This document shows, in pieces, positions 3,294 through 39,524 of a stretch of 46,905 nucleotides of DNA. This stretch comes from a virus: the IMG/VR virus record IMGVR_UViG_3300021962_000183, positions 1 to 46,905 of that record; one strand, 5' to 3'. A model generated the notes under the pieces. The model ran no database searches. It worked only from the letters and a program-made list of their open reading frames with translations, and had not been told where the DNA came from. How positions within the stretch are numbered: the stretch's first letter is position 1; each line of letters begins with the position of its first letter. The position numbers and the translations under genes were made by a program.

Positions 3294-3332
3294 AAGCGCT
3301 TTGCCGCCTCCTGGGCGTTTTCAGCCCCCGAC

Positions 3333-3803
3333 CTAGGCTGGGATACCCCCAAACCAGCCCGGATGCTGCAGGATGCGCCCCCATGGGGGCAGGATGGGTT
3401 CGGGCGAGGGGGTGGGGACTACCGCGATCACCGCGCCCTCGTTCCCGGGCTTGCACCACACCTTGCGGGCTCCGCCCGACCACACCACCGAGTCGTCCGC
3501 CCAAGCCCCCGCCGCCGTCATGGCGTCGAGCACGGCTTTGTCCAGGTTGTCCCTGTCGGGCTTGAGGGTGTGGGGTTTGCCCCACCTGGACTTGTCCTTC
3601 GTGGGCATGAAGAACACCGACTCGACGGCTACCGCGCCCTTGATGGCTACCGCCAGGTTGTTGCGGGTCTCGCGGGCTACCGCGTCCTTCCAGGCCTTCA
3701 CCTTTGGATCCGTGTTGGACACCACCCTTCCGCGGACGAAGCGCGGTCGGGGCTGTGGCTTGGGGATGCCGCGGACATGGATGACGAAGCTGGGGGGTGG
3801 CAT
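3333..3803 (-). CDS. rusA: RusA-family Holliday junction resolvase
   Basis: RusA enzymes are small homodimeric endonucleases that cut four-way DNA junctions during phage recombination and replication. The 156-residue product has the family signature at residues 81-93 (KPDRDNLDKAVLD) with acidic residues D83, D85 and D88, and a second acidic patch at D103-D104 in AWADDSVV, matching the metal-binding aspartates. The N-terminus (IHVRGIPKPQPRPR) fits the start of the fold, and the Lys/Arg-rich segment 22-45 fits DNA binding. It is transcribed alone, away from the 3804-4085 control region and opposite to the gene at 4086. It could work with the Sak4-like ATPase, nuclease and helicase encoded further right. 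Confidence 0.88.
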   Translation of the reverse strand: MPPPSFVIHVRGIPKPQPRPRFVRGRVVSNTDPKVKAWKDAVARETRNNLAVAIKGAVAVESVFFMPTKDKSRWGKPHTLKPDRDNLDKAVLDAMTAAGAWADDSVVWSGGARKVWCKPGNEGAVIAVVPTPSPEPILPPWGRILQHPGWFGGIPA

Positions 3804-3859
3804 GTGGCTGTCTACCCCGGGTGTGCCGCCTGATCAATCTTTTGCTCGCCCCTGCGGAA

Positions 3860-3949
3860 GAGGGTAGTGGACTACCCTCCCCCCCAACGGGGGGTGAGAG
3901 GGTAGGATTGTTCCCGTTAGGGGACATACTACCTTCCCGTAGGGAATCC
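3860..3949. promoter_or_regulatory. array of mutually exclusive hairpins upstream of rusA
   Basis: GAGGGTAG occurs at 3860-3867 and 3898-3905, and its complement CTACCCTC lies between them at 3872-3879, so the middle element can pair with either side. The downstream version is reinforced by CCCCCC/GGGGGG (3880-3885 with 3889-3894). GGTAG at 3901-3905 can instead pair with CTACC at 3929-3933, enclosing GTTCCC/GGGGAC. TTCCC/GGGAA (3934-3946) forms another hairpin. It lies in the 5' flank of rusA (minus) and behind the promoter at 4050, so it may be a leader-RNA switch, an attenuator or a structured origin; the strand that matters is not known. Confidence 0.6.
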
Positions 3950-4019
3950 TCGCGGCTCGCCGATGTTTACTGGGTTTTTAGCGTAGTAATTTTGAGGAAG
4001 GCTTCCTCGCGCATGGTTT

Positions 4020-4087
4020 ATTTCACGCGCAACTTCATGACAAACCCTGTTGACAGCTGGGTTTGTCATGAGGTAATTTCGTGAAAT
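4020..4087 (+). promoter_or_regulatory. nested palindromic operator around a sigma70-like promoter
   Basis: An outer inverted repeat ATTTCACG (4020-4027) / CGTGAAAT (4080-4087) encloses a perfect 12-bp inverted repeat CATGACAAACCC (4036-4047) / GGGTTTGTCATG (4059-4070). A third CGTGAAAT lies at 4113-4120. The central spacer contains a consensus -35 TTGACA (4050-4055), and TAATTT (4074-4079) could be the -10 after an 18-bp spacer, putting +1 at about the ATG at 4086 and implying a leaderless transcript. Such symmetry suggests binding of a dimeric repressor. A further near-palindrome, GAGGAAG/CTTCCTC, sits at 3994-4008. Confidence 0.65.
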
Positions 4088-4544
4088 GAAAACCGAAAAC
4101 GACCTTCCTCATCGTGAAATACATGGGGGGTCTTCCTCAAAGGAAGCACCCCACCTTCCTCGTTCCTCGAGCGTTATCCCGCTGTTCCAGGTGGTCTTGG
4201 AGCCCGACTTTTTTGACACCAAAACGCCAAGTTTTTTGGCCCGCTGCCAGCTCCCACGGGGCACCATTTCCAGCATGGCGAAGTGGCTGCTGGGGATGAT
4301 CCGGTCGGCCTCCATGGCGGTGCGCCGGTCTCGGCGTGCGAAGCCCCAGTCCAAGCCCATACCCGGGCCCACAAAGGCACAATACCAGCGGAACCACAGG
4401 GCTTCGCGGCGGCGGCGCCTGGAGGAGATCCGCCGGCGCATGCCGGATGTGGTCGACCAGGTGACGGATGCGGCCTCCAGGGCTCGGGAGGAGCGCCGGC
4501 TGCGCGGACAGCTGCGCGAGGATCGCCGCAGGGGCATACTTTGA
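4086..4544 (+). CDS. basic hypothetical protein before the tRNA (152 aa)
   Basis: Unknown protein whose C-terminal two thirds are highly basic (repeated RRSRR, ASRRRRLEEIRRR, REERRLRGQLRED) and predicted helical, suggesting nucleic-acid binding. Codon third positions are GC-rich from about 4170 onward, supporting this strand. The ATG at 4086 coincides with the predicted transcription start of the palindromic promoter, and no other ATG occurs before 4275 (MAKWLLG), the alternative start. The stop at 4542-4544 is one base from the tRNA, so both are probably cotranscribed. An antisense frame across 4109-4696 is rejected because it runs through the tRNA. Confidence 0.5.
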   Translation: MKTENDLPHREIHGGSSSKEAPHLPRSSSVIPLFQVVLEPDFFDTKTPSFLARCQLPRGTISSMAKWLLGMIRSASMAVRRSRRAKPQSKPIPGPTKAQYQRNHRASRRRRLEEIRRRMPDVVDQVTDAASRAREERRLRGQLREDRRRGIL

Positions 4545-4545
4545 C

Positions 4546-4617
4546 GGGGGATTGGCTCAATGGCTACAGCACCCGGTTTGCATCCGGGAAACGGGGGTTC
4601 GACTCCCCCATCCTCCA
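4546..4617 (+). tRNA. tRNA-Ala (anticodon TGC)
   Basis: The cloverleaf can be folded by hand. The acceptor GGGGGAT (4546-4552) pairs with ATCCTCC with a single G-T wobble at pair 3-70, the alanine identity element. The anticodon stem CCCGG/CCGGG encloses TTTGCAT, giving anticodon TGC for GCA codons. The T-arm is GGGGG-TTCGACT-CCCCC. The D-stem is three pairs with one mismatch and the variable loop has only four bases. CCA is not encoded (the sequence continues ACCC). It is followed by its own terminator. Phage tRNAs commonly supplement codons that are rare in the host. Confidence 0.93.
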
Positions 4618-4627
4618 CCCAATTGGA

Positions 4628-4659
4628 GACAGCCCGGTTCTTAGGCCGGGCTGTCTTTT
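4628..4659 (+). terminator. rho-independent terminator after tRNA-Ala
   Basis: GACAGCCCGG (4628-4637) pairs perfectly with CCGGGCTGTC (4646-4655) across an 8-base loop, followed by TTTT. The T-run is on the plus-strand side only. It ends the 4086-tRNA transcript and separates it from the convergent small-terminase gene, whose stop is about 40 bases further on. The 4660-4700 gap holds CA-repeat sequence and no gene. Confidence 0.9.
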
Positions 4660-4700
4660 CCTCGGGCGGGCGCACACACACGCGCCATGAACACACACAA

Positions 4701-5276
4701 TCACCCGCCTTCGGAAATGCTCTTGGGATCTATGTCTATGGTGTCCTTGTGGGACTTCAAGACAGTTCCGACTGTGGCCTTCATGGTCTCGAAGGTCTGC
4801 CGCCCGCGGTTGATGAACTCCTCCAGCTCCGACACCGACATCTCGGAAAGCGGCTTGTTTGTCTTCTTCAGGCCAAGCTGAAGGGATGCGGCGACCGCGG
4901 ACAGGCCGTGGCCGGATGCCTCAAGCGTCCACTTGGCGGCCTGGAACTTGACCTGCGCGGGCGCGGCGGGGTCGTTCATGAGGCTCCTGATCGTGGCCCA
5001 GGCCTGGCTTGCGCCGCTGGTCTTGATCTCGGTGTCCCGCATGAGCTCGACCTGCTCCCGGATGCGGGGGTCGGCCAGCCAAAGCTTGGCCTTTTCCCTG
5101 TCCTCGCCGACGGCCTTGGCGGCCGCAACCGCGTCGCCCCCGTTGCCGACATAGGCCTCCACGAATGCGATGTCCCTCTCCCCCAGCGGCTCTCGCTCCT
5201 CGGGTTTGACCTGAAGGCCGCCCTTCCAGGAGTCCTTGCGCTGGTTCAGGTTTGATGGTGTCTTGGGTGTGCTCAT
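4701..5276 (-). CDS. terS: terminase small subunit
   Basis: The small terminase recognises the packaging site on phage DNA and hands it to the large subunit. The 191-residue product has the usual plan: a helix-turn-helix-like N-terminal part at residues 33-75 (ERDIAFVEAYVGNGGDAVAAAKAVG, then a DPRI segment) as in phage TerS proteins, then a conserved helical region (TIRSLMNDPAAPAQVKFQAAKW, about 95-116), and a charged C-terminal tail. Its ATG overlaps the stop of the lysis gene upstream. It is the last gene of the long minus-strand operon and lies about 33 kb from the large subunit within the window, an unusual separation. Confidence 0.85.
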   Translation of the reverse strand: MSTPKTPSNLNQRKDSWKGGLQVKPEEREPLGERDIAFVEAYVGNGGDAVAAAKAVGEDREKAKLWLADPRIREQVELMRDTEIKTSGASQAWATIRSLMNDPAAPAQVKFQAAKWTLEASGHGLSAVAASLQLGLKKTNKPLSEMSVSELEEFINRGRQTFETMKATVGTVLKSHKDTIDIDPKSISEGG

Positions 5277-6959: not shown

Positions 6960-7249
6960 TTGGATTGCTTGGTTTTGAAGGTTCCCGAAAAGCTGCAAAG
7001 CGGAGATTTCATCTTGATCACAGCGCAAAGCGTGCCTCGCTCGTCCCCGACGGCGACGGAGGCGTCGAAGCCGGCCCTGTCGGCGCAGTCGACGAAGACC
7101 GTGGCCGACCCCAGGGCGAAAGCGCGGGCCGCCTGGGCGCCGTCGTCCTTGTCGAGCATGCACTGCGCGAACTCCAGGTCCTCCATGAGCGCGGCCAGTG
7201 AGGCGCACGCCTCGAAGTGTGTTTTCCTTGCCGGAGGGAGCGGTTCCAT
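6956..7249 (-). CDS. hypothetical protein (97 aa)
   Basis: Unknown 97-residue protein beginning MEPLPPARKTHFEACASLAAL. Its first half is helical with Cys and acidic residues, and the second half (SATVFVDCADRAGF, GTLCAVIKMKSP) looks beta-rich. It starts about 30 bases after the primase-helicase stop and overlaps the next gene by four bases, so it belongs to the replication operon. Confidence 0.65.
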   Translation of the reverse strand: MEPLPPARKTHFEACASLAALMEDLEFAQCMLDKDDGAQAARAFALGSATVFVDCADRAGFDASVAVGDERGTLCAVIKMKSPLCSFSGTFKTKQSK

Positions 7250-7279
7250 GTCTGGAATCTGGGTTTGCCTGCGAGCGTG

Positions 7280-9535
7280 TCAAGTCCTGGCGGCAACCCC
7301 GGCCTCCTGGTAGTACATCCAAGCGTCCCACCTGGGCGGGGTGTAGGCGCCCGATGCGAGCTCGGCCCCGGCCTCGTCGGTGGCGATCGGGCCGTTGGGG
7401 ATGTCGAGCCACTTCTTGTCCTTGCCCCCCCGCGCGGCGCAGGCAACCAGCACCTTGCGCAGGAGCAGGTCGTCCACGATGTGCGAGAACTCGGACGGCC
7501 CCACCTGCCTGAGGATAGGCGGCAGCTCGTTCCGCCGGCGGTACAGTCCGGACTTGGCGTTCTTGCCCTCGACCGAGTAGGGGTGCCCGGCCCGGGCCGC
7601 CTCCTCCACGGCCGCGGCCAGCCAGGCATGCCGCTCCCCCATGTTGACCGACGAGAACTGGTCCTTGTCGGTCACGTCGACCAGCAGGCCCGAGTCCTGC
7701 CGGAGCAGGGTCTTCTCTCCGTCGAACATCTCGGGGTTGTTGGCCTTGACAACGGCGATCTTCCACAGGATGCCGCGCCTGGGAAGCATTCCCATGCCGA
7801 CCATGCGCCTGTCGTAGTCGGCGCAATGCCAGATGCCCAGGACCGCGCGGAACGCGGCCGGCAGGGCCGATGAGCCGCGGATGGCCGCCTTCATGTCCTC
7901 GACGCCCCTGATCGGCTCGTTGCCCTGCTTGCGGATGTGGTGGGTCAGGATCATGGCTGCGCCGAGCTCGCCGCAGACCTGGCTGGCCACGCGGACGAAC
8001 TCGTTGATCACGGTGGCGGAGTTTTCCTCCCCGTGGAGGGTCGAGTTGAGGGTGTCGACGACGACCAGCTTGAGGTCCGGAAGCCTGCGTAGCAGGGCGA
8101 AGAACTCGGCCCAGCGCTTGGAGGGCTTGGCCTCCTGGGTCTTGGGATCCCTGTCGACGATGGCGAACGAGCCGCCCGAGTTGATGGTTGGCAGGATGAT
8201 GAGCCTGTCGCCCGCCTTCTCGCGCCGGCGCCCGACGTCGATGTCGTGCAGGCGGATGTGCAGCTCGTCCTTGTCGTCCTCGGTTGTCAGGATGACGACG
8301 GTGCCGCCTTCGCGGATTTCCCCGCCGCACCAGTCGAGCTTCTCGCCGGGCTCGTAGGACGCGACCTTGATGGCCAGGTCCAGCATGAGGAAGGTCTTGC
8401 CCGCCCCTCCCTCTGCGACGAGGAGCTGGTGCTTGCCGGCCAGGATGAGCCCGCCGACGAGGAACCGGCGCTCGGGCTTGGCGGTCATGGACCACCTGTG
8501 CGCAGCCCACACCTCCAGTCCCTGGCCGTCCTCGATCATGGGCTTGATGGGCTCGGGGTAGGGGCCGTGGTTGGCGAGGTCGCGCGACATCATGGCGTGC
8601 CATTCCCGCTCGAAGCGGGCGACTGGCCATGCCGGGTGCATGTGGGCGTCCATCCATCCGGCCGTGGCCTCCTTGGCCTCGTCGACGGAGAGCTCGCCCT
8701 GCCGAACGCAGTGCAGGTAGTGGCCGCACACGCGGGAGAACTGCCCCCAGCGGTTCTTCTCCTCGTCGCCGCCCTCGTGGACGTCCTCGGTGAGGTCGAG
8801 CTCCCCGCGCTCAGGCCTGAAGAGCCCCTTGTGGGCCTCCTCGGCTGCGGCGCCGTCGTGGCGTGGCATGGCGGCGGCCCTGTCGGACAGCAGCCTGATG
8901 CCGTATGCCTGCGGATCCTTTGGAACCTCGATTGTGACCGGACGGGCGTTGCCACCCTTGTTGTGGACGGAGCCGGCGATGCGGACCGGCTGGTGGGCGC
9001 GGCCGTATGGGTTTGAGACGACCCCAAGCCCGAACTGGATGTCCCCGCCGCCCTTGCGTGCCAGCGCGTCGCGAAGCTGGACAACCGCGGCGACATCCCT
9101 GCAGTGGTCGTTCAGGGTCCAGTAAAGGTGGCGCTTGCGCTGCCCGTCGGACTCGCCGCCCGAGTACACCACTGCCGTGGGGGCGCCAAGTTTCCCGGAC
9201 AGGAAGTCGTGCTTGGACTGGATGTCGCCGGAGTCGATGTCCACGATCACGGAGCTGAAGCTCTCGACGTTCTTGGACTCGCCCTTGGGCTCGGACAGTA
9301 TGGCCGGCACCATGTATGAGGCGTGGCCATGCTGGGTCCACCGGTCGACATTCCTGCACACCTCGGCCACGGGGTCCTCGATCCTGGACAGGTCGATGAA
9401 CTTGTCCTCGCGGAAGACGCCCTCGGCCGGCGTGCCCTTCTCGCCGATGCCGCGCAGGTTGATGAAGCCGGCCTTGGGAAGCTTGCCAAAAACGACGGTC
9501 AGGTGGAGCCTGACCTGGGAGTGGTCGGTGCTCAC
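7280..9535 (-). CDS. primase-helicase, RepA-like AAA ATPase (751 aa)
   Basis: Probably the phage replication primase-helicase. The N-terminal third (residues 1-240) has archaeo-eukaryotic-primase-like or RepB-like features: VIVDIDSGD (97-104) could supply metal-binding aspartates, and RKRHLYW (133-139) a conserved His. Residues 355-560 are a RecA-type ATPase of the RepA/AAA_25 sort, with Walker A AEGGAGKT (374-381), Walker B KLVVVDTLNS (489-498) and a THHIRK sensor (531-536). The C-terminal 170 residues are basic and may bind DNA. It starts with GTG overlapping the upstream HTH gene. No DNA polymerase is present, so the host replisome is probably recruited. Confidence 0.82.
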   Translation of the reverse strand: MSTDHSQVRLHLTVVFGKLPKAGFINLRGIGEKGTPAEGVFREDKFIDLSRIEDPVAEVCRNVDRWTQHGHASYMVPAILSEPKGESKNVESFSSVIVDIDSGDIQSKHDFLSGKLGAPTAVVYSGGESDGQRKRHLYWTLNDHCRDVAAVVQLRDALARKGGGDIQFGLGVVSNPYGRAHQPVRIAGSVHNKGGNARPVTIEVPKDPQAYGIRLLSDRAAAMPRHDGAAAEEAHKGLFRPERGELDLTEDVHEGGDEEKNRWGQFSRVCGHYLHCVRQGELSVDEAKEATAGWMDAHMHPAWPVARFEREWHAMMSRDLANHGPYPEPIKPMIEDGQGLEVWAAHRWSMTAKPERRFLVGGLILAGKHQLLVAEGGAGKTFLMLDLAIKVASYEPGEKLDWCGGEIREGGTVVILTTEDDKDELHIRLHDIDVGRRREKAGDRLIILPTINSGGSFAIVDRDPKTQEAKPSKRWAEFFALLRRLPDLKLVVVDTLNSTLHGEENSATVINEFVRVASQVCGELGAAMILTHHIRKQGNEPIRGVEDMKAAIRGSSALPAAFRAVLGIWHCADYDRRMVGMGMLPRRGILWKIAVVKANNPEMFDGEKTLLRQDSGLLVDVTDKDQFSSVNMGERHAWLAAAVEEAARAGHPYSVEGKNAKSGLYRRRNELPPILRQVGPSEFSHIVDDLLLRKVLVACAARGGKDKKWLDIPNGPIATDEAGAELASGAYTPPRWDAWMYYQEAGVAART

Positions 9536-9987
9536 TTGGATTTCCTCACCCAGCTGTGGATGCGAAGGCCGTTGTCCTTGATGAACCTTGAGACGGCGGC
9601 GTCCTTGGCGCCGAGGCGCCTGGCGATGGATCGCTGGCTTTCGCCGGCATCCAAGCCCGATTTTATGGCCTCCTCCCAGCCGGTCTTGTCAAGGCGGTGC
9701 AGTGGCCGGTGGTTGCGGCGCTTCCATCGGATGCCGAGGATGGCAATCCACTGTCTCAGGGCCGCCTTGCTGTAGCCTAGCCACTTGGCCGCCGCTGGGA
9801 TGGACATGCCCTTGGAGTTGGCCCTGTTGATCAGGGGCTCGAGGGTGGCGATGCGCTGGGCCCTGAAGTAGGCCATGCGGCGTCCCTTGAATATGACCAT
9901 GGTGCGGTTCTTGCCGTCCCTTGCGGCCGGCTTGGTCGTCGGGTTGACGATCTCGGGAACGATGTTCCCAGGGGTGTCTTCGCTCAT
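9532..9987 (-). CDS. helix-turn-helix DNA-binding protein (151 aa)
   Basis: The 151-residue basic protein has two likely helix-turn-helix units: MSIPAAAKWLGYSKAALRQW (about residues 60-80) and ESQRSIARRLGAKDAAVSRF (about 115-135). The repeated pattern of an AxxLG helix followed by a recognition helix resembles replication-initiator or recombination-directionality proteins and phage regulators. It lies directly before the primase-helicase with a four-base overlap, so it may help load it at an origin, but that is inference from position. Confidence 0.75.
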   Translation of the reverse strand: MSEDTPGNIVPEIVNPTTKPAARDGKNRTMVIFKGRRMAYFRAQRIATLEPLINRANSKGMSIPAAAKWLGYSKAALRQWIAILGIRWKRRNHRPLHRLDKTGWEEAIKSGLDAGESQRSIARRLGAKDAAVSRFIKDNGLRIHSWVRKSK

Positions 9988-15216: not shown

Positions 15217-16143
15217 ATGAAACACACAGCCCAAACCATAAGGCAGGTGCTTAAGGCCTATTTGCTTGAGCACGTCGACCACAAGGTGGTTGCCAGGAGG
15301 AGACAGGAAAACTGCATTGACGTGCTTTCCGCCGAGCTGGGGCACCTGCCCCCGTCCGGTCTGACGCACGAAGTCATCATGCGCTACAGGAGCCGCAGGG
15401 CCTCGGGCAAGACCAACGGCCGCAGGGTGGGGGATGGTACCCTGAGGCGCGAGCTGAACTGCCTCGTTGCCGCCTTGAACCACGCGGCAAGGCATCGCAG
15501 GATCGACCAATCCATGATTCCCCACATAGACCTTCCAAAGGCCCCTCCGCCCAGGGACATGTGGTTGAACGAGCAGGAGGCAGACCAGCTTTGGGACGCG
15601 GCAAGGGCTGAGGGCGGCAGGGCCTTCCTGTTCGTAGCCATAGCCATTGAGACGGCAAGCCGCCGGCGAGCCATAGAAACCTTGAGATGGGATCAGGTTG
15701 ATCTGCAATGCGGATTGATCAATTTCCAGGCATCGGGCCTTGAGATCACAAAGAAAAAGCGCGTGCCGGTTCCCATGTCCACCAGGCTGCACAAGGTGCT
15801 TTCGGAGGCCAGGAGCTCTTCCGAAAACGAGTGGGTCATAGGGTCGCCGCACCCCATACAAAGGTGCTTTGACAGGGTTAAGCGCAGGGCGCACGAGGCC
15901 ACCGGGAACCGCCGGTTCATGGCCATATCGCCGCACACGCTGAGGCACACCTGGGCGACGCTTGCGGCAAGAGCCGGCGTGCCATTGTTTGAAATAGCAG
16001 GCGTACTTGGCGATTCCGTGGCGACGACAACCAGGGTTTACGCTCACCATTCGCCGGACCACCTTAGGTCGGCCGTCAATTTCAGGTCGCAGCGATCAGG
16101 ACAGGCGCTTGCCCTTCATGTTGACGAAGGCCAGCAGGTATGA
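15217..16143 (+). CDS. int: tyrosine-family site-specific integrase
   Basis: The 308-residue recombinase would integrate and excise the phage genome. The N-terminal 110 residues are the SAM-like arm/core-binding part (including VVARRRQENCIDVL). The catalytic domain has box I arginine in ETASRRRAIETLRW (around 149-151), a beta-hairpin lysine near 179-181 (ITKKKR), HTLRH at 240-244 with R243, and Y275 in RVYAHH. The usual box LGH is LGD here (D266). It is the only plus-strand gene between the two minus blocks, and its last 48 bases overlap the convergent membrane-protein gene. No excisionase or attP site can be named. Confidence 0.9.
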   Translation: MKHTAQTIRQVLKAYLLEHVDHKVVARRRQENCIDVLSAELGHLPPSGLTHEVIMRYRSRRASGKTNGRRVGDGTLRRELNCLVAALNHAARHRRIDQSMIPHIDLPKAPPPRDMWLNEQEADQLWDAARAEGGRAFLFVAIAIETASRRRAIETLRWDQVDLQCGLINFQASGLEITKKKRVPVPMSTRLHKVLSEARSSSENEWVIGSPHPIQRCFDRVKRRAHEATGNRRFMAISPHTLRHTWATLAARAGVPLFEIAGVLGDSVATTTRVYAHHSPDHLRSAVNFRSQRSGQALALHVDEGQQV

Positions 16144-19026: not shown

Positions 19027-22000
19027 TCACCTGGTTGGCGGCCTAGTGTTTTTCCTGGGAGCCCTGGGGTCGGCTGGCTCATTGGGCATAAGCATGCCTA
19101 CGGTTTCTTCTCGCGCAGCCTCTGTTCCCGCAAGCCTTGTGACAAGCACGCCAAGAGCCGGCGGAAGCATTGCGGCCGCAAAGGCCTGTACTCCTGGTTG
19201 ACCGACATACTTCACGGCGTCCTTGACCAAGACCTTCTCCCCCTTGCCTTGTTCGGCGCGCGAAATGTTCTGCATGGTCTTGACGATCTCGCTGATGACC
19301 GGGGGGATCTCGCCTCGCATTAGTTTGTTCACGAACTCGGCCTTGCCGCCGGCTGCGCCGGTGTAGGAGTAGCCCTCGATTGTTCGCTGCATAAGGCTCT
19401 TGTCGTTGCGGTTTTGGATCATGTCCCTGAGGAGCAGATACGCCGCGGCAGCCATCATCATGGCAGGTATGGCAAGCGCCTGGGAAATCATCCTGAACCT
19501 TGAATAGGACGAAAGGTCGATGTCCTTGTTGCCTCCGGCAGCTCCTGTTGCGACATCGCTGAACAGCGGCCTGAACACCTGCTCGAGGGCGGCAGCAGGG
19601 TATCGCAGATAAGTCATCGCCGCCTTGCCGAAGAAGTGATCCTGGCTGATCAGCTTGCCCCTTTCCCCGCCGGTGTTGTACCCGCGGTTGGTGTTGACCA
19701 TGGCAAGCGAGGATTCCATGCGGATCACTTTCCTGGCCAGCTTTGCGCTTGGTGCGTCAGAGGAAAGCCATTCGACAAACTTGCCTGACTTCCTTGCCGC
19801 GATCCAGTCCTGGGCGAACTGATCCATGTCGGCGTCGGAAACGCCTGCCCTGCGAAGGCGCATGCGGCACTCGGCCTTGATGGAGAACGGGTTGTTCTGG
19901 GCGTTGGGGAAGGCCGCGGCGTGCCCCGCGGCAAGCATGCTGTCGTTGACAAGTCCGTCTACAAATCCGTCGATTCTGTTAACGGCCAGACGGGCGGTGG
20001 TTGCTCGCTTGGCGTTTTCAGTGACCTCAAGCCCGTAAGCCCTGGCAATGGCGTTTGTGCCCCTGTTAACCATTCGCGCGCCTCGCAAAGCCGGACCGAA
20101 TCCGGCATAGTCCTCCTCGGTGTCCAGCGTGTATCCTGAATTGTCCAGGATCCCGTGGGCACCGGCTGCGTCTATCAGGCCAACCGCCCTTGCCAGCGCG
20201 ATGTCCCCGTTTTCGTCATTCAGAAGGCGTCCCAGCTCGGTCTTGAATCGGGCGGCGTCCGCCGGCGACATCTCGGCAAGCAGCCTGATGGTGTTGTGCA
20301 TCATCAGAATGGGCCCAGTCACTGCAGTGGTGAGGTCGCCACGGGTGGCGGCAGCCATGGGCTCAAGGAAGTTTGCCAAGGCCGTTGTCTTGAGCTTCGC
20401 CATGTTGGACAGCGCGAGGAGCGAATTGGCCAATGCGTGCCCTGGCGATGGCATGGGATTCAAGGTTCCAAGGGCGTCCTTCACATGGTCCTTGAAGATC
20501 TGGATCTGGAACTCGCTGGCCCCCTCGGCGCGCATCCTGTCCACCATGGCCAGCCATTTTTCGCCTTTTGCGCCAAAACGCCTGGAGAACTCGGACAACG
20601 TGGTCACACGGTCGATGTACCTGCTCCAGGCCAGGCGCGCGTCGTTCTTGTAAAAGTCGCGCAATACGGCCCTGGCCTGGGGAGCGAACATCCTGGACTT
20701 CATGAAGTCAGCCGAGGTGCTGACCTTTGCCCCCTCCATGATAAGTCCCATTGTCTGGTCTGCACCCTCTGCCCCGAGCGAGATCTTGTCGAGCCATGCC
20801 TGGGCCTGTTCCGCCGGCTTGGCCGTGGTCAGCTCGGCGATTTCCAGGTTTAGGCTGGCAACCTCGTCCGGATCCGCAGTAGGAGCTCCAGGCTTCTGCA
20901 TGTCCTTGAGCTTCCTGGTCAGCATGGCTATGCGCATGGGGTTGTTTATCGCGTACGCCCTGGTGGCAGCCGCCAGGAAACCGGACTGATCACCCTCAAC
21001 CTTGGCGATGTCGATGCTGTGCGGCATGCCATAGTCCTGCGCCTTGCCAATTTCCAGGCCGGCTTCCTTGGCATAGTCGTAGGCCCTGTCAGCAAGGTCC
21101 TTTAGCCCCTTGGCAACCTGGCCTTCGGGGCTGTTGTCGATCGGCATCTCGCCAGTGACCATCTTGGCGATCTTCAGGTCTGCGTCGGCCAGCTCAGCCT
21201 CGGTCATGGTGGCCATCTGCGCGGCCATTGGCTCGAAGGCCTTTGCAAGCCGCCCCTTCATGATGCGACGGTTTGAGTCTCTTTCGTCGTAGAATGTCTC
21301 CTTTGCGCCAGCCGGAGTGTTGCCGTCTCGGATCGCGAACATGTTGGCCACGTCCGACATGGTTCCGGACTGCACAAACCTTTCGTTCTTTCCCGCAAAA
21401 ACAGCGCCGATGTCCCTGCCGTCGGCGATCAGGTGCATGTTGGAGACAATGGGGTTGAGTCCTGGAAGCAGCCTCGAGTCGGCTAGCGCGGCCGTGGCCC
21501 CGAGCTGTGCAATGTCCATCGCGGCAACGCCGGCGTCGGTAAGTGCGGCAGCAGGAACTGCCGCGCCCATGCTGCTCGGCTTAGACTTAGGGATGATCAG
21601 GGGGCCGTCATCGTCGGGGTTCACCATTTCCGGCGGCTGATTGAACCTGGCTGCAAGCGCATCTAGTCGCTCATTTGCATCCTTAATCGTTATAGCGCCT
21701 TTTGCCAAATCATCCTGAATCCTGTCTTTCTTGCTTTTGTACAAGAATTGATTTTCACTCTGCTGTTTGCTAGGCTTACGACCTTTCTTTCCAGGCACTG
21801 CTGCTTCATCGGCCGGGGCAACAAACGGACTCACCTCGTCTATGGCAACGTCAAGCGCCTCGATCGCCTCTTCCCGGGCGTAGTATGCGTCGGTTTCCTG
21901 CAGGCTTTCAGGGGTGTTGTCCTGTCGATCCTGAAGGCCATCGCGCATGGTCTGCAGCTCGCCGAGCTTCTCCTGGATCTTGGCCTTGTCGTCCGCCTCG

Positions 22001-25000
22001 ATCGCGGCCTTGAGCTCGTTGACAATGCCCCCGCCCTTCTTTCCGCCAAACAGCTCCTTCGTGTCGGCCTTGGAAATCGTCAAGCCGGACAAGTCGTCAA
22101 GGGCGTCGATGGCTGTTTGGTTTTTAGAATCAGGTTTTTCGCCAGACTTAGCCTCAATTTCATCAAGCATCTCCTTTGCATACTCGATCTTTTCCTTTGC
22201 AATTTTAATTTCATTTTTTGAGGCAGAAGATTTCAATACTGCCTCGTTCTCGGCTATGACGCGTTTGTAGAAATCCGGTGATTCGCTGTTTCCGGACTCA
22301 TTAGCCTCAAACATCACTTGCTCCCATCCGTCCAAAGACCTTTCACCTATTTGGTCTGACTTCAGAATTATTGTCTTATCCGATTCAACGTTTTTCAGGG
22401 TGATGTCAGGGTTCCTTCCGTTCCCAACTGAAACGACAATGTAATCCTCGCCATCAATATTGAACTGATCCAGCGCGTTGACTCCTTTGTATCCCTTTAC
22501 TGATCCATCTTTCGCAAGAACACCTAGGTCAATAAGCTCCGACTCTAGCGCATCTGACTCAGGAGTGTTTTTGTCGTTATACTTACCTCTCATTTTCCAC
22601 AAAGCATCCTTCGCCAGGCTAACATCTCCATTGTATTTTGAATCTACGATCCCTTTGCTCTTTGTTGGCTTGCCATCCTTTCTTTGCTCCCTTGCTTCCC
22701 TCAGCTTCAGACTCAATTCAAGCCATTCTTCCTTGGCTTTTTCATTTTTAGCCCCAGAAGCACTGCGCTTTGCGTGATCAAGGATCTGGGCGTCATAAAC
22801 AGACTTATCGGATTTCACGGCAGACCACTCACCATTTCCAGCTTTAAAGTCGTAAGTGTATGTGAACGTTTTGTCTGGTGTGATTATGTGAGCTTTGTAA
22901 ATCTTCTTAGTTTTATCAAACTCATGGTAGTTGTCGTCTACTACTGCTCCCTTAGACCTGAAGTCATCGGATTCAATCAATGAATAAACCATGTCATTGA
23001 TGCTTTTCACTGTCACAACCTTTACCCTTTTATCACCCCTGTAGACTTCGTGGTCCTTTTTGGGACTGGGAAAATTGCTTACGTCTATGTTTCCGCCTTC
23101 GCCTTCTGGAGCCGACGGCTTGCTAACCGGAGGTTTCGTGGCCGGCTTTTGGCCAGAAAGTCCAGCTGCCGGCTTATTCGGCTGCTGAACGGGAGCTAGT
23201 TTCGCAAACTCAGGAGCACCACTGGCGCCAGCAGCCCCAGTGACAGCCTTCAAAACGGCCAGGATGTTCTTTGTGTTTTCATTTCCACTATCTTTCGCGT
23301 CTTTAAAGTCCGTTTTGATATGCCCATCTTGCTCGGCCTTGATCAGGGCCTTGACGTAAGTTTTGGCCGAATTGGCGTTTTTAATTTGCCCCGCGTCGGC
23401 CCCCATCCTTGTTGCCATGTGAACAACTTTCCACGTGCCTCTGCGTGTTTTTCCAATGCCCCATGTTCCATAACTGGTCACTTCCATTCCCTCTCCACCA
23501 CTGTTAATGGATGCAAGTCTGACTTTTTCTCCTTTTGGAAGCTTAACTTTTTCAACTTCTCCAAGATATGCCTGGCGACTTGATTCGGGAGATGTGCCCT
23601 CGGAAGGCTTAGCCGGCACGGAAGTGGGGATCTTTTCAGCCGGAGCATCTCCGGCTTTGCCTGATGCTTGCTGTGATTTGATCAACTTGTCTGCTTCGGC
23701 AATGGTCGCTACCTCATCAATGATGTTATTTTTTGAGTCCATTACAAGGTAGCCCTTTTTGGGCAAAACCATTCCACTGATCACAAAATTGCCGTCTTCG
23801 CTAACGTAATCAGCCTGCGACGTGATCATTCCCTCTCCTCCGTCATTCAGCTTATATCCAAGCCTGGTGTATTCGATGTGGTTTTTGGCAGCACTAGAAA
23901 TACCACCTCCGTATTGCGTGGCCCATGGAGTCTCGAAAAGCTCCCTCACCCTTTGGTCAGGATCATTCCTGAAGCGCTCGATGTCTTCCATTTTTGCAGG
24001 CTTTTCTTTTTCGACGGCAGCCTCGGCGTCCTGGACGGCCTTTTCTTGCTTGGCGATGGTCTTGCGCAGCTTCTCCGCCTGCTTGCTGTCGCCCTTGCCG
24101 GCCTTCTCCAGCCTTGCAAGTTGCTGCCTGGATCCCTCCAGGACATTCCGTGCGGTATCAGCGTTTACCTGGGCATCGGATTTGGGGATGTTTTCACCTC
24201 TGGCGGCGTTGTCCTCGGCCCACAGCTTCTCCCTTTCGGCCACGTCAGCAGGATCCTCCGCAGGATTCGGCTCGTCGCCGGCCTCGTCGTAGTCCTCTGC
24301 GTCAGGCTTGGTTACAACCGGCTCTTCCTGCGCCGATGGCTTGGCGGATTCCTGCACAGCAGGCGCGCTGAAGAAAGATTCACCGGTCTTCTCGACCTGT
24401 GACTCGGGATGCCATCCGCCGTACCAAAGGCTATCGGCCGTTTCGAGCAAAACGTTATGATCGTCACCATCGGCAGACGTTGTGACACTAAGAACAATCG
24501 CCTTTACAGGGACAAGGCCTCTACCTTCATCCAAAACAACTATGTCTCCAATTTTAAGCCCCTTTGTGTTCTTTTTCTCAACGGTATCATGGAACCGCTC
24601 AGGGTCATCAATTTCTTCTTTAAGGCCACTAATTGGATCGTTTTCCTTTACGTTGTCGTAAAGGTGCTTGTAGATCATCCTGCGTCGCTCATTCAGGTCA
24701 CTGGGCGCCAAAACCTTTTGCGAAGGCATCTTGAACTCCTGGCCCTCAAGTTGCGCACGATTCATCCTAAGCTCTCCCCTTAGCTTACTGATTTCCTCCT
24801 CAATCTTATCTCTCTTTCTGTTAGAGATTTTTTTGCCGCCGTCTTTAAGTTCAGATTCAAGCTGCTTTATTCTGCTGTTGATTTCAGATTTCCTTGCTAC
24901 AAGCTTATCAATGGCCTCCTTGTTGGCCGCATTAGGTGCGGCGGCAGCAGGTTTATCGCTCTGTTCCTGGGCCTGCGGAGTAGGTGCGGTAGGAGCAAGC

Positions 25001-26868
25001 GGATCCTCGAAGAACACGACCTGGTTTTGGCCGAATACGTTCCTGAGCGTGCGAACGTTTTTGTCGACAAACCTTGCGTTCGGCCCCGGGATCCCCTGGA
25101 TTACAACGGCGTCATGCCCGTCGGCCTTGATAAGCGCGACCAGGCTGTCGATGCTGCGGTTCTGCTCGGCCTCGTCGGCCATGTTCATGGGGTTGTCGTA
25201 TCTCCAGCCCGCTCGGCTAACCAGCTGGCGCCACTGATCATCGTCCGAGATAACCAGCGGGTTCTTGGCGTCCATGTCGCGCTTTTCTACCTGAGGGCCA
25301 TACTCAAGGGCCTCGCGCTCAGAGAACGCGTAGTATTTGCCGGTCCCGAAAATAGGGCGCCCAGACGATCCTTCGCCATACACGGAAAGTCGATCAGGAC
25401 GTCCATAGCCTCGGTACAGCTTGAAGCCCTTGAGCGGGGAATCATTTTGCTGGGCCGAAGGAGCTGGCTTACCGGCTTCTGAAACAGGCTGGGCCGCCTG
25501 CTGGGCGGCAGGCTGTGCAGAGGCAGGAGGAACGACAGGTGACTGCGGCTGTCCCTCGGCGTACTCCTGTGCCAACATCTGCTTAACTTCAGGGCTATAT
25601 CCATCCCAGTCCTGCGGTTTCACAGTGGGAGGGCGCTGGGGTTCCTGAGCCTGAGCAGGGGCGGCTTGAGGTGCGGGCTGATCGGGCGCCTGAGCAGGCG
25701 CGGGAGCCGGACGGGGAGGCTGCTGGGCAGCTTGGGCTGCAGGCTGAGGTGCCGGCTGAGGTGCTGGAGCCGGCGTCCTGGGCTGAACGGCTGGCTGAGG
25801 GGCCGGGGCGTTTTGGTCGGGTGCCGGGACTGCCTCTGCAGGGGGCAGGTCAACGGTTTGGTTTGCGGCCCTGGCGTTCCAATCAGCGATCGCGTTGGCC
25901 TTGCCCTCTGGCGTAAGGCCGGCCCAAACGTCCGGATTGAATCCGGCAGGCATCTGTGGATCTCCGATCGGCATGGGCGCCTCAACAACCTCGGGGTTGG
26001 AAAGCGGAGCCCTGGTCGTGCGAGGGTACCTGCGGGCGAGCGCGTCCCACGCCGCCGACGTGGTGGCATAGCCGGCGTTGAATGGCAATTGGCCAGCGGG
26101 ATTGGGCCTGGTGCCGAACACGCCTAGCGCGATGTCCCCAATGGCCTGGTAGCCGTTGATGTCGCCCTGGTTGCCAACGTAGTTTGCACCAAGCGCCAAA
26201 GGTATGTTTGTGCCAACGTTGACTGCGGCCTCCTTGGCTGCAGCCGGCATTGCCTGACCTGCGCGAGCTGCCTGCACGCCCTGTGCAAGGCCCTTTACGT
26301 TGCCCAAGCCGTAGGTAAGCGAAGCGGCGCCAGGCACATATGAGCCGGCCATGAAATATGGAGCCGTCTCAGGGTTGGTTGCCAGCTGGCGCTGGCGCTC
26401 ATCAAGCGGGTTGACTACGTCCTGCACGGCAGAGGTGCCGAAGGCGCTTGCGATCCCGCCAACCCCAGTGATGGCGGCCTGGGCCGCAAGCTTGCCAACA
26501 GGATGAGGGATTAGGTTGACGAATGGACGTGAAACGCCGGTTGCTGCGCCAGCTCCGAAAAATCCGGCAGCCGCGGGCGCTGCGCCCCTGAGCGCACCTT
26601 CGCCGAACGCAATCGCCTTGTCGGCAGGAGTGGGAAATGGATTAAGGAAGCTGTCCGACGATTTCCTGGCGGCGGACATCGTGTCCTGAACGTTGATCCT
26701 GGTCAGCTCCTCCGAGAATTGCTGAGCCTCGATCGCCTTGCGACGTTCCTCGGCAAGCGGATCTACGGCTGCGGATGGCGCCGGCTCGGCATCAAAAGCG
26801 TCAAAGGGGTTTCCGGCCGGCTGGGCTGGAACTGGGGTGTCGAATGCGTCGAAGGGATTTGGTTCCAT
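19027..26868 (-). CDS. giant polyvalent internal virion protein with ART domain (2613 aa)
   Basis: This is probably ejected with the DNA, as T7 gp16-like and other large polyvalent proteins are. N-terminal duplicate NPFDAFD motifs (4-10, 20-26) precede a Gly/Ala-rich hydrophobic region (90-260) and a Pro/Ala/Gln linker (330-475). Residues 480-625 look like an ADP-ribosyltransferase: KLYRGYGRPD, GTGKYYAFSEREALEYG, KNPLVI, HDAVVIQG. A coiled coil follows (655-712), then several Lys-rich domains (700-1720). The C-terminal 830 residues are helical with membrane-like spans near 2465-2480 and 2560-2580 and resemble PLxRFG-type phage proteins. Roughly 21.7-24.9 kb is much more AT-rich, suggesting inserted domains. 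Together with the three genes upstream it forms the internal core. Confidence 0.85.
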   Translation of the reverse strand: MEPNPFDAFDTPVPAQPAGNPFDAFDAEPAPSAAVDPLAEERRKAIEAQQFSEELTRINVQDTMSAARKSSDSFLNPFPTPADKAIAFGEGALRGAAPAAAGFFGAGAATGVSRPFVNLIPHPVGKLAAQAAITGVGGIASAFGTSAVQDVVNPLDERQRQLATNPETAPYFMAGSYVPGAASLTYGLGNVKGLAQGVQAARAGQAMPAAAKEAAVNVGTNIPLALGANYVGNQGDINGYQAIGDIALGVFGTRPNPAGQLPFNAGYATTSAAWDALARRYPRTTRAPLSNPEVVEAPMPIGDPQMPAGFNPDVWAGLTPEGKANAIADWNARAANQTVDLPPAEAVPAPDQNAPAPQPAVQPRTPAPAPQPAPQPAAQAAQQPPRPAPAPAQAPDQPAPQAAPAQAQEPQRPPTVKPQDWDGYSPEVKQMLAQEYAEGQPQSPVVPPASAQPAAQQAAQPVSEAGKPAPSAQQNDSPLKGFKLYRGYGRPDRLSVYGEGSSGRPIFGTGKYYAFSEREALEYGPQVEKRDMDAKNPLVISDDDQWRQLVSRAGWRYDNPMNMADEAEQNRSIDSLVALIKADGHDAVVIQGIPGPNARFVDKNVRTLRNVFGQNQVVFFEDPLAPTAPTPQAQEQSDKPAAAAPNAANKEAIDKLVARKSEINSRIKQLESELKDGGKKISNRKRDKIEEEISKLRGELRMNRAQLEGQEFKMPSQKVLAPSDLNERRRMIYKHLYDNVKENDPISGLKEEIDDPERFHDTVEKKNTKGLKIGDIVVLDEGRGLVPVKAIVLSVTTSADGDDHNVLLETADSLWYGGWHPESQVEKTGESFFSAPAVQESAKPSAQEEPVVTKPDAEDYDEAGDEPNPAEDPADVAEREKLWAEDNAARGENIPKSDAQVNADTARNVLEGSRQQLARLEKAGKGDSKQAEKLRKTIAKQEKAVQDAEAAVEKEKPAKMEDIERFRNDPDQRVRELFETPWATQYGGGISSAAKNHIEYTRLGYKLNDGGEGMITSQADYVSEDGNFVISGMVLPKKGYLVMDSKNNIIDEVATIAEADKLIKSQQASGKAGDAPAEKIPTSVPAKPSEGTSPESSRQAYLGEVEKVKLPKGEKVRLASINSGGEGMEVTSYGTWGIGKTRRGTWKVVHMATRMGADAGQIKNANSAKTYVKALIKAEQDGHIKTDFKDAKDSGNENTKNILAVLKAVTGAAGASGAPEFAKLAPVQQPNKPAAGLSGQKPATKPPVSKPSAPEGEGGNIDVSNFPSPKKDHEVYRGDKRVKVVTVKSINDMVYSLIESDDFRSKGAVVDDNYHEFDKTKKIYKAHIITPDKTFTYTYDFKAGNGEWSAVKSDKSVYDAQILDHAKRSASGAKNEKAKEEWLELSLKLREAREQRKDGKPTKSKGIVDSKYNGDVSLAKDALWKMRGKYNDKNTPESDALESELIDLGVLAKDGSVKGYKGVNALDQFNIDGEDYIVVSVGNGRNPDITLKNVESDKTIILKSDQIGERSLDGWEQVMFEANESGNSESPDFYKRVIAENEAVLKSSASKNEIKIAKEKIEYAKEMLDEIEAKSGEKPDSKNQTAIDALDDLSGLTISKADTKELFGGKKGGGIVNELKAAIEADDKAKIQEKLGELQTMRDGLQDRQDNTPESLQETDAYYAREEAIEALDVAIDEVSPFVAPADEAAVPGKKGRKPSKQQSENQFLYKSKKDRIQDDLAKGAITIKDANERLDALAARFNQPPEMVNPDDDGPLIIPKSKPSSMGAAVPAAALTDAGVAAMDIAQLGATAALADSRLLPGLNPIVSNMHLIADGRDIGAVFAGKNERFVQSGTMSDVANMFAIRDGNTPAGAKETFYDERDSNRRIMKGRLAKAFEPMAAQMATMTEAELADADLKIAKMVTGEMPIDNSPEGQVAKGLKDLADRAYDYAKEAGLEIGKAQDYGMPHSIDIAKVEGDQSGFLAAATRAYAINNPMRIAMLTRKLKDMQKPGAPTADPDEVASLNLEIAELTTAKPAEQAQAWLDKISLGAEGADQTMGLIMEGAKVSTSADFMKSRMFAPQARAVLRDFYKNDARLAWSRYIDRVTTLSEFSRRFGAKGEKWLAMVDRMRAEGASEFQIQIFKDHVKDALGTLNPMPSPGHALANSLLALSNMAKLKTTALANFLEPMAAATRGDLTTAVTGPILMMHNTIRLLAEMSPADAARFKTELGRLLNDENGDIALARAVGLIDAAGAHGILDNSGYTLDTEEDYAGFGPALRGARMVNRGTNAIARAYGLEVTENAKRATTARLAVNRIDGFVDGLVNDSMLAAGHAAAFPNAQNNPFSIKAECRMRLRRAGVSDADMDQFAQDWIAARKSGKFVEWLSSDAPSAKLARKVIRMESSLAMVNTNRGYNTGGERGKLISQDHFFGKAAMTYLRYPAAALEQVFRPLFSDVATGAAGGNKDIDLSSYSRFRMISQALAIPAMMMAAAAYLLLRDMIQNRNDKSLMQRTIEGYSYTGAAGGKAEFVNKLMRGEIPPVISEIVKTMQNISRAEQGKGEKVLVKDAVKYVGQPGVQAFAAAMLPPALGVLVTRLAGTEAAREETVGMLMPNEPADPRAPRKNTRPPTR

Positions 26869-37961: not shown

Positions 37962-39524
37962 TCAGGTCCAGAACGATTTCAACCTATTTTCCCTATCTTC
38001 GCGGGCTTTGGAGGACGCCTTGATCCAAGCCAAGGTGCCGGTCTTGGGGCCCGTCTTTCTCTGGATCTCGGGATTGGCCGCAACCTGGCTGGCCAGCCCC
38101 ATGCCAATGTGGGCGAGCGCGTCCACAAAGTCGTCATGCCTGGCCTGCGGGAACTTCAGCAGCTCGGACTGGGCGTCGGGCCACCAAGATGCGAAGCGAG
38201 GGAAGAAAACCTTGCCCTGGGCCATTCGCGCCCTGATCGCCTGGGCTCGAGCCTGCTTGTCCTTGACCGGCACAACCTCGTCAATAACGCAATATATCCC
38301 TCTCTCCTGCATGCGTTTACGCAAGAACGGCCCAATGGCCTTCGAGATGTGGCCGCGCTCGGCCTTCCACCAAAGCGGCTTGTGCTTTTTCATAAGGTCC
38401 AGCATCCCGTCGCAAACATGGTCGGTCCTGGCCCTCCTCCAAAAAAGGTCGGGCATTACCCAGATGTTGTCGTCCTCGTCAACCCCGACGACCATCAGGC
38501 ACGTCTTGTCAGCCTCCTGGGCTGTCGAAACGGCATGGTCGGAACCAGCATAGATCCGCAGGTTGCTTGGCAGCTCGCTCGGACCGTAGGTCTTCAGCCA
38601 CTCGCGCTTAACGAAATCGCCGTCGTCAGGCGTCGGGCTGCCCTGATACAGGGCCGAGAAGCCGCGGGGATTAAGCCGCTTGATCTGCTCAAGGGACTCG
38701 ACCGGGAAGCGTTCCGGCCAAAGAGCCTCGCCTGGCTTGCGCTTCATCGGGTCGTCATCGACGGCGATGGCGGGCAGCGCCAGTACCTTCCAGTTCTCCG
38801 CCTCCTCTGCGTTGAAACACGGGTTCTTGGGGTCCGTGAGGCGTCCGATCAGGTCGTCCTCGTGCCAGCGGGTCATGATGATCACCACACGCCCACCTGG
38901 CATGAGGCGGGTCATTGCAACCTCGGTGAACCAAGCCCATTGCTTGTCGCGGAAGCTTTTGCTGTCAGCCTCCTCGCGGTCCTTGATCGGATCGTCGATG
39001 ACGAGCAGGTCGGCGCCGCGGCCCGTCAGCGATCCGCCGGTGCCGACGAACACGGCCAGGCCGCCTTCCTCGGTCTGGATGCGATCTGCGGCGGCCGAAC
39101 CGGCCTTTAGCTTGGCGCCTGGAAAAACCTGCTGGTACACAGGCATTCGCATTGTCTCTCGCACAGATCGGCCGAAGTCCTGGGCAAACTCGGCGTTGTA
39201 GGTCGCAAAGATCAGCTGGCGGTACGGATCCTTGCCCATGAACCACGCAGGAAAGCGCCTAGATGCCAGCTCAGATTTGCCGTGGCGAGGCGGCATTGTG
39301 ATGATGAGCCGCGGCATCTTCCCCTTTTCCACCTCCTCTAGCGCGGCTGCGATCACATGATGGTGCTTGGCCGGCTTGTACCTGGAGGCCGTGTGGTCGT
39401 CGGGTGTCTCGGGATCAGGAAGCGTGAACTGGGCAAAGTCTATCAGGCTGTCCTTGGCCTTCCTGAGCCTCAAAAGGCGCTCGGCAGCCCTGAGCTGGTC
39501 CCTCAGGTCGGCGTCGTCGCTCAC
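37962..39524 (-). CDS. terL: terminase large subunit (520 aa)
   Basis: The packaging motor-nuclease. The ATPase domain has Walker A MPPRHGKS (77-84), Walker B LLVIDDP (173-179) with following acidic residues (KDREEAD), and coupling motif IMTRWHEDDL (216-225). The nuclease domain carries YAGSDHAVS (about residues 320-328) with a metal-binding aspartate, and a final acidic site near HDDFVDALAHIG (about 457-468). It starts with GTG overlapping the short fibre gene's stop. Length and motifs fit headful-type terminases. The small subunit lies far away at 4701-5276. Confidence 0.93.
   Translation of the reverse strand: MSDDADLRDQLRAAERLLRLRKAKDSLIDFAQFTLPDPETPDDHTASRYKPAKHHHVIAAALEEVEKGKMPRLIITMPPRHGKSELASRRFPAWFMGKDPYRQLIFATYNAEFAQDFGRSVRETMRMPVYQQVFPGAKLKAGSAAADRIQTEEGGLAVFVGTGGSLTGRGADLLVIDDPIKDREEADSKSFRDKQWAWFTEVAMTRLMPGGRVVIIMTRWHEDDLIGRLTDPKNPCFNAEEAENWKVLALPAIAVDDDPMKRKPGEALWPERFPVESLEQIKRLNPRGFSALYQGSPTPDDGDFVKREWLKTYGPSELPSNLRIYAGSDHAVSTAQEADKTCLMVVGVDEDDNIWVMPDLFWRRARTDHVCDGMLDLMKKHKPLWWKAERGHISKAIGPFLRKRMQERGIYCVIDEVVPVKDKQARAQAIRARMAQGKVFFPRFASWWPDAQSELLKFPQARHDDFVDALAHIGMGLASQVAANPEIQRKTGPKTGTLAWIKASSKAREDRENRLKSFWT

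Follow-up and report, generated by a model that had tools for sequence, protein, structure and literature searches.

Upstream of the Holliday-junction resolvase gene rusA of a tailed phage lies a branched hairpin element of 107 bases, a real, conserved and probably DNA-based structure with two covarying alternative pairings. By analogy with plasmid origins, we consider the chances slightly better than even that it forms the single-stranded-DNA part of the phage replication origin. The DNA analysed, hereafter the window, is a 46.9-kb contig (an IMG/VR virus record) that carries integrase and terminase genes. The genes referred to below are:

3333-3803, - strand: rusA, Holliday-junction resolvase (PF05866, E 6.6e-19)
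4086-4544, + strand: small basic protein divergent from rusA, with weak but consistent relatives at the same place
4701-5276: TerS-like gene (phrog_2538, E 0.005, a weak assignment)
7280-9535, - strand: replication protein, predicted fusion of a RepB'-like primase domain and an RSF1010-RepA-like helicase
15217-16143, + strand: integrase
37962-39524, - strand: terminase

The original prediction described a chain of mutually exclusive hairpins in front of rusA, and all of its arms were recovered, namely the GAGGGTAG copies at 3860-3867 and 3898-3905, CTACCCTC at 3872-3879, CTACC at 3929-3933, and TTCCC (3934-3938) with GGGAA (3942-3946). Absent from it were the hairpin P3, formed by TGTTCCC (3909-3915) and GGGGACA (3920-3926) around a GTTA loop, and the pairing P1 of GAGGGTAGT (3860-3868) with ACTACCTTC (3928-3936). 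Because of P1, most of the stems can coexist as a three-way junction: in the predicted fold of the + strand (3850-3944), P1 (3860-3868/3928-3936) encloses P2 (3872-3905) and P3 (3909-3926), and P1x (3850-3857/3937-3944) extends P1 outward. The switching geometry of the prediction is supported by covariation among relatives, as detailed below, with the correction that the main fold is a junction of largely compatible stems and not a chain of exclusive ones. The parts of the element are:

3850-3956, + strand: the complete element, made up of the three-way junction, the mini-hairpin P4 and a conserved tail; best GC-corrected fold of the contig, and z -5.1 against shuffled sequences
3850-3857, + strand: P1x 5' strand CCCTGCGG, which can pair with CCGTAGGG (3937-3944) and competes with P4
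3860-3868, + strand: R1 GAGGGTAGT, 5' strand of P1, pairing with R' (3928-3936)
3872-3905, + strand: P2 hairpin CTACCCTC/GAGGGTAG enclosing C6/G6; R2 is its 3' strand (3898-3905)
3898-3905, + strand: R2 GAGGGTAG, alternative partner of R'
3909-3926, + strand: P3 hairpin TGTTCCC-GTTA-GGGGACA, with a C-GNNA-G type loop
3928-3936, + strand: R' ACTACCTTC, common 3' strand with either R1 or R2 as its partner
3934-3946, + strand: P4 mini-hairpin TTCCC-GTA-GGGAA with an invariant GTA loop, supported by covariation
3946-3956, + strand: conserved tail ATCCTCGCGGC, 3' of P4, from alignments

P4 competes not only with P1x but also with the base of P1. RNA folding of the + strand gave a minimum free energy of -63.3 kcal/mol (z -5.1), a value reached by none of 200 shuffled sequences, and the - strand folded with a z-score of -2.7. 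Among 4,680 windows of 110 nt covering both strands of the contig, 3841-3950 (+) ranked first with the lowest GC-corrected energy, and the second-best one (3981, +) adjoins the element. In the computed ensemble, CTACCCTC is paired with its downstream partner in ~75% and with its upstream partner in ~25% of cases.

Relatives were collected with the replication protein (751 aa), the primase-helicase, as the query, which yielded more than 100 related contigs in IMG/VR and thereby the useful relatives; rusA as the query gave one distant locus. The detailed architecture is found upstream of rusA in 14 sequences (the window and 13 others) from ~7 lineages, all of which have P2, P3, the closing 3' strand R', P4 with its GTA loop, and the tail (consensus ATCCTC(A/G)CGGC or a variant). 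The stem sequences largely differ among these members and the shape is kept, as exemplified by the P1 pairs GAGGGTAGT/ACTACCTTC, AAGGGTATG/CATACCCTT, GATTA/TAATC and GTTAA/TTAAC. We scored 42 loci longer than 9 kb with readable sequence upstream of rusA: in 16 of them the 110-nt window that folds best lies in this region, in 36 a top-10 window does, and in 20 no repeat cluster elsewhere in the locus is denser than the one found here (ties counted). Other clades have other strong structures at the same place, for which we claim no homology to the 14-member element. The loci L016, L024, L025, L029, L044 and their relatives, for instance, have a different, strongly conserved element upstream of rusA, with GGGC(C)AAAGCCCGAGGATGGC and later TCCTCGCTTCCTCG, which looks pseudoknot-capable.

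Both alternatives of an exclusive pairing covary across seven lineages, so that the mutually exclusive hairpins of the original prediction withstand the covariation check that it had proposed. When R' was matched to the R1 and R2 regions of its own or of other lineages in a permutation test, own-lineage matches were better than permuted ones (R1-R' p 0.0004; R2-R' p 0.0012; P4 p 0.0024), values that come from only seven lineages, with regions and helices picked after inspection, and of which the first two are not independent because R1 and R2 are near-copies. Since R1 and R2 both track the changes in R', one strand appears to have two alternative partners, and a conserved, exclusive choice of R' (3928-3936) between R1 (3860-3868) and R2 (3898-3905) is supported by the sequences. 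The R2-R' pairing is possible over 6-11 contiguous pairs in all 14 members. Folding energies computed with DNA parameters favour the R1 form in 13 members, the margin being 0.1-7.4 kcal/mol overall and 0.7 kcal/mol in the window, and the R2 form in L012. P1x, whose partner was assigned by hand in 11 of the 14 members, looked conserved by eye but did not pass the cross-lineage permutation test (p 0.29).

In P4, both-sided changes occur at all five pairs, and none of the 14 sequences breaks any of the four inner ones. Compensatory changes between close relatives were also found in P2 (A-T to G-C between L090/L095 and L096; C-G to T-A between L008 and L062) and in P3 (G-C to A-T between L060/L069 and L059), and the three clusters with such changes have at most one broken pair. 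Pairwise compensation is weak in cluster A (L007, L061 and L012; 1 compensatory and 13 broken pairs), apparently because L012 prefers the other fold. Counts for clades 2-4 derive from unconstrained folds with many broken pairs and were left out of the evidence. In a MAFFT alignment of the 14 elements, P4 aligns well but P1-P3 do not, so that RNAalifold recovers P4 only; helices were assigned by hand and combined with the cross-lineage permutation in place of RNAalifold on this alignment.

Two counts bear on which strand and which nucleic acid folds. In folds that excluded G-U pairs, which puts the two strands on an equal footing, isolated helix mismatches on the + strand comprise 19 G.T and 2 A.C (11 of the G.T and both A.C from other clades) versus 56 and 72 in 246 random segments, a bias with a Fisher p of 4e-5 without correction for relatedness. 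Shuffle z-scores gave no clear + strand preference (27 of 44 loci, with windows picked on the + strand), and the strand preference thus rests on the mismatch and loop counts. Perfect hairpins with GNA loops occur at 4.7/kb in the elements of the 14 members versus 0.4/kb in the background, an excess that is largely the single conserved P4 loop, and those with GNNA loops at 1.9/kb versus 0.4/kb; hairpins with the complementary TNC or TNNC loops are absent from the + strand of the 14 elements. The P3 and P2 loops vary within the class (GTTA, GGTA, GTCA, GAA), and GNRA or UNCG loops are hardly found, an exception being GTGA in L060. GNA and GNNA are not classic stable RNA loops. As DNA, mini-hairpins with GNA and GNNA loops are exceptionally stable (PMC4686876). 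We infer from these observations that single-stranded DNA is more likely than RNA to be the folding molecule.

The small basic protein encoded downstream of the element gave no family in searches of Pfam and PHROG. Such proteins divergent from rusA form a conserved family of ~20-30% identity, which is present in close members and absent from clade 2; in the window, the N-terminal codons overlap the repeats described below. This ORF is followed by a complete tRNA-Ala gene (4546-4619; anticodon TGC), in which the G3-U70 identity pair is present. The corresponding place is taken by a tRNA-Thr in L004 and by a tRNA-Met in both L007 and L061, a pattern that resembles the exchange of tRNAs at a fixed site. 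The TerS-like gene is located on either side of rusA depending on the lineage, and the neighbouring genes vary between lineages. Elsewhere in the window, a 2613-aa protein (19027-26868) has one weak PHROG match only, of unknown function in PHROG; the GC content in the middle of its gene (~22-24 kb) falls to 45-50% versus 61% for the contig, and a tRNA-Cys predicted within its coding sequence (25805-25897) is probably a false positive. A DNA similarity search against named phages gave matches only in the tRNA and the rusA coding sequence, and a search of genome contigs for a host returned helicase-domain matches of only 28-30% and no host.

Several further features lie downstream of the element:

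3951-4150: AT-rich stretch, where three successive 100-nt windows have 45-49% GC versus ~61% for the contig
3994-4161: CTTCCTC repeat cluster, with copies at 3994 (-) and at 4002, 4104, 4132 and 4155 (+)
4032-4074: CATGACAAACCC/GGGTTTGTCATG inverted repeat spanning a TTGACA box (4050-4055)

Five of the 13 CTTCCTC copies of the contig lie within these 168 bp downstream of the element. Relatives have other repeats at the same place, namely GAGAGAC (L058-L060, L069), CGTCCTC (L067, L115) and CCACACA (L005), and this change of repeat type suggests a DNA-binding protein that co-evolves with the repeats. DnaA boxes were considered as a general explanation and rejected, as only L005 has one, within five TCCACA repeats. 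The inverted repeat with its TTGACA box, near which TAATTT occurs at 4074-4079, is likely the promoter/operator of the + strand ORF; a strict sigma-70 scan gave no site.

The original prediction had also viewed the geometry as typical of attenuators or riboregulators. For rusA itself such a role is not supported: a leader of that gene would be on the opposite strand to the favoured + strand, an Rfam search of the element returned nothing above gathering or above chance, and a terminator scan detected no terminator-like site at the element. A structured + strand RNA with two alternating folds that acts as an attenuator or riboregulator, be it a small RNA or part of the 4086 ORF transcript as its leader, would account for the two covarying, mutually exclusive pairings, which are typical of RNA switches, and for the strong RNA folding energies, and the favoured strand runs towards the conserved divergent ORF in the close members checked. 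However, a TTGACA-like box, read from the sequences, lies between the element and this ORF in most of the 14 members, which would place the element upstream of the transcript and outside the leader of that gene; a strict scan of 3300-4750 found no sigma-70-like site, the loops are of the stable DNA type, and clade 2 relatives (L016, L025, L044 and others) lack a + strand ORF there. We therefore regard an RNA switch as unlikely.

Three further explanations invoke DNA. The structure might be a packaging site (cos or pac) and serve as the recognition signal for a nearby terminase small subunit, given that the TerS-like gene lies within ~1.2 kb in most relatives that have both genes, at 4701-5276 in the window and across rusA, still close, in L058-L060, L069 and L096. 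The TerS-like assignment is weak, however, the element stays beside rusA while the TerS-like gene moves, and, to our knowledge, a single-strand structure with covarying stems is not usual for pac or cos sites, which makes this reading very unlikely. A double-stranded cruciform could be a substrate or an autoregulatory site of the adjacent resolvase, given that RusA cuts four-way junctions and that the relatives compared have the element upstream of rusA, though in part by construction, since rusA served to locate it; yet a cruciform needs both strands, whereas the mismatches are biased to one, and it leaves the adjacent clusters of short repeats unexplained, and we find it highly improbable. 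Finally, the element might be a DNA-hairpin promoter read from the extruded strand, like the promoters of the phage N4 virion RNA polymerase, which have a 5-7 bp stem, a G-N-A triloop and a purine at -11 (PMC4496689). P4 would likewise be a single-stranded DNA hairpin and has a 5-bp stem and a G-N-A triloop, but its loop centre is a T in 14 of 14 members where N4 has a purine, it is part of a larger folded element, and no RNA polymerase was recognised (the 2613-aa protein with its single PHROG match of unknown function included), leaving such a promoter exceedingly improbable.

The origin reading draws on the replication protein, which the predicted structure and profile matches identify as a RepB'-type primase fused to an RSF1010-RepA-type helicase. 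Its helicase part (AAA_25) matches PDB 1g8y (E 1.6e-10 over residues 358-620), its predicted N-terminal fold matches the S-2L PrimPol (6zp9, E 9e-11) and RepB' (3h20, E 2.2e-8), and the RepB_primase family PF16793 was found in the distant relatives L071 and L072 and not in the window protein itself. A candidate for a RepC-type initiator that binds the repeats, an HTH protein (9532-9987), is encoded beside the primase-helicase gene. Clustered repeats, an AT-rich stretch and a primase-helicase fusion together point to an origin with a single-strand initiation element. The original prediction had named a structured DNA origin as an equal possibility; of the ideas considered it fits best, on the strength of the structure, the repeats, the AT-rich DNA and the primase-helicase.

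Two known systems provide the closest comparisons. In RSF1010, RepC binds the iterons and RepA unwinds the DNA; the ssi hairpins that become exposed are recognised by RepB', with priming on the 3' side of the stem-loop (PMC4434180, PMC4234260). The RSF1010 (IncQ) oriV resembles the present locus in having a RepA-type helicase and a RepB'-type primase, here fused in one protein, and in the grouping of repeats and AT-rich DNA with a structured single-strand element. Unlike the locus described here, it has two ssi, simple hairpins of 40 nt, one per strand, instead of one branched and switchable element, and tandem ~20-bp iterons instead of short 7-bp repeats that are irregular and occur in either orientation; the 3' tail of the phage element lacks the GTG at which RepB' starts, and no RepC homologue was identified. 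The Sulfolobus plasmid pRN1 requires a 100-nt stem-loop origin, conserved in shape but not in sequence, beside its primase-helicase gene, and its authors noted a similar stem-loop in phage BIP-1 (PMC4234260). The pRN1-type origins share with ours a structure of ~100 nt whose shape is kept and whose sequence is not, and an archaeo-eukaryotic-type primase fused to a helicase. In pRN1, the fusion comprises an SF3 helicase and a winged helix, as opposed to the RepA-type AAA_25 helicase here, where a repeat cluster is present in addition; and the pRN1 stem-loop directly follows the replication gene, whereas the element of the window lies 3.3 kb away, adjoining rusA. Only L071 and L072, which are the most divergent of the relatives in the comparison, have a structured element directly behind the primase-helicase gene. 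The element would thus work like the ssi of RSF1010 and the pRN1 stem-loop but lacks some of their defining features, and by this comparison is a member of neither class.

The distance to the replication gene, the short and irregular repeats and the presence of a single structured element count against an origin, and the GC skew of the contig showed no clear turning point. In the Rhizobium phage RHph_Y3_1 (L145), a repeat-rich gap directly behind the primase/helicase gene (7159-7464) is the best fold of 13 kb and is packed with GTTCCCA/TGGGAAC repeats; as a precedent it is weakened by a primase that is TOPRIM-like and not RepB'-type. This gap has the motif AAGTCRTTGA in common with clade 2 relatives. 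In the Wolbachia phage WO relative (L146), no outstanding structure was found beside the RepA-like gene.

Counterparts of most RSF1010 and pRN1 origin parts are present here, and we accordingly propose an origin in which the + strand folds for the primase. A phage DNA-binding protein would bind the repeats and help to open the AT-rich stretch, and the primase-helicase would then load. The exposed + strand may fold into the element and be recognised by the RepB'-type primase domain, and a primer would be started next to it, as by RSF1010 RepB' at ssiA and ssiB. As a guess, the exchange of R' between R1 and R2 could shift the element back and forth between a closed Y and an open state with P4 free. 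That this conformational switch of single-stranded DNA hides or frees the C-GTA-G mini-hairpin read by the primase-helicase, and so licenses initiation, is a tentative and rather doubtful extension of the origin proposal.

RepB'-type primases are known to read structured single-strand origins in a few plasmids. If the element is such an origin, the range of these origins would extend to a large group of uncultivated dsDNA phages represented by more than 100 IMG/VR contigs. These phages would offer a natural set of variants with a constant structure and a changing sequence, together with unusual covariation evidence for a switch made of DNA, not RNA, and origin recognition by primase-helicase fusions would become directly testable.
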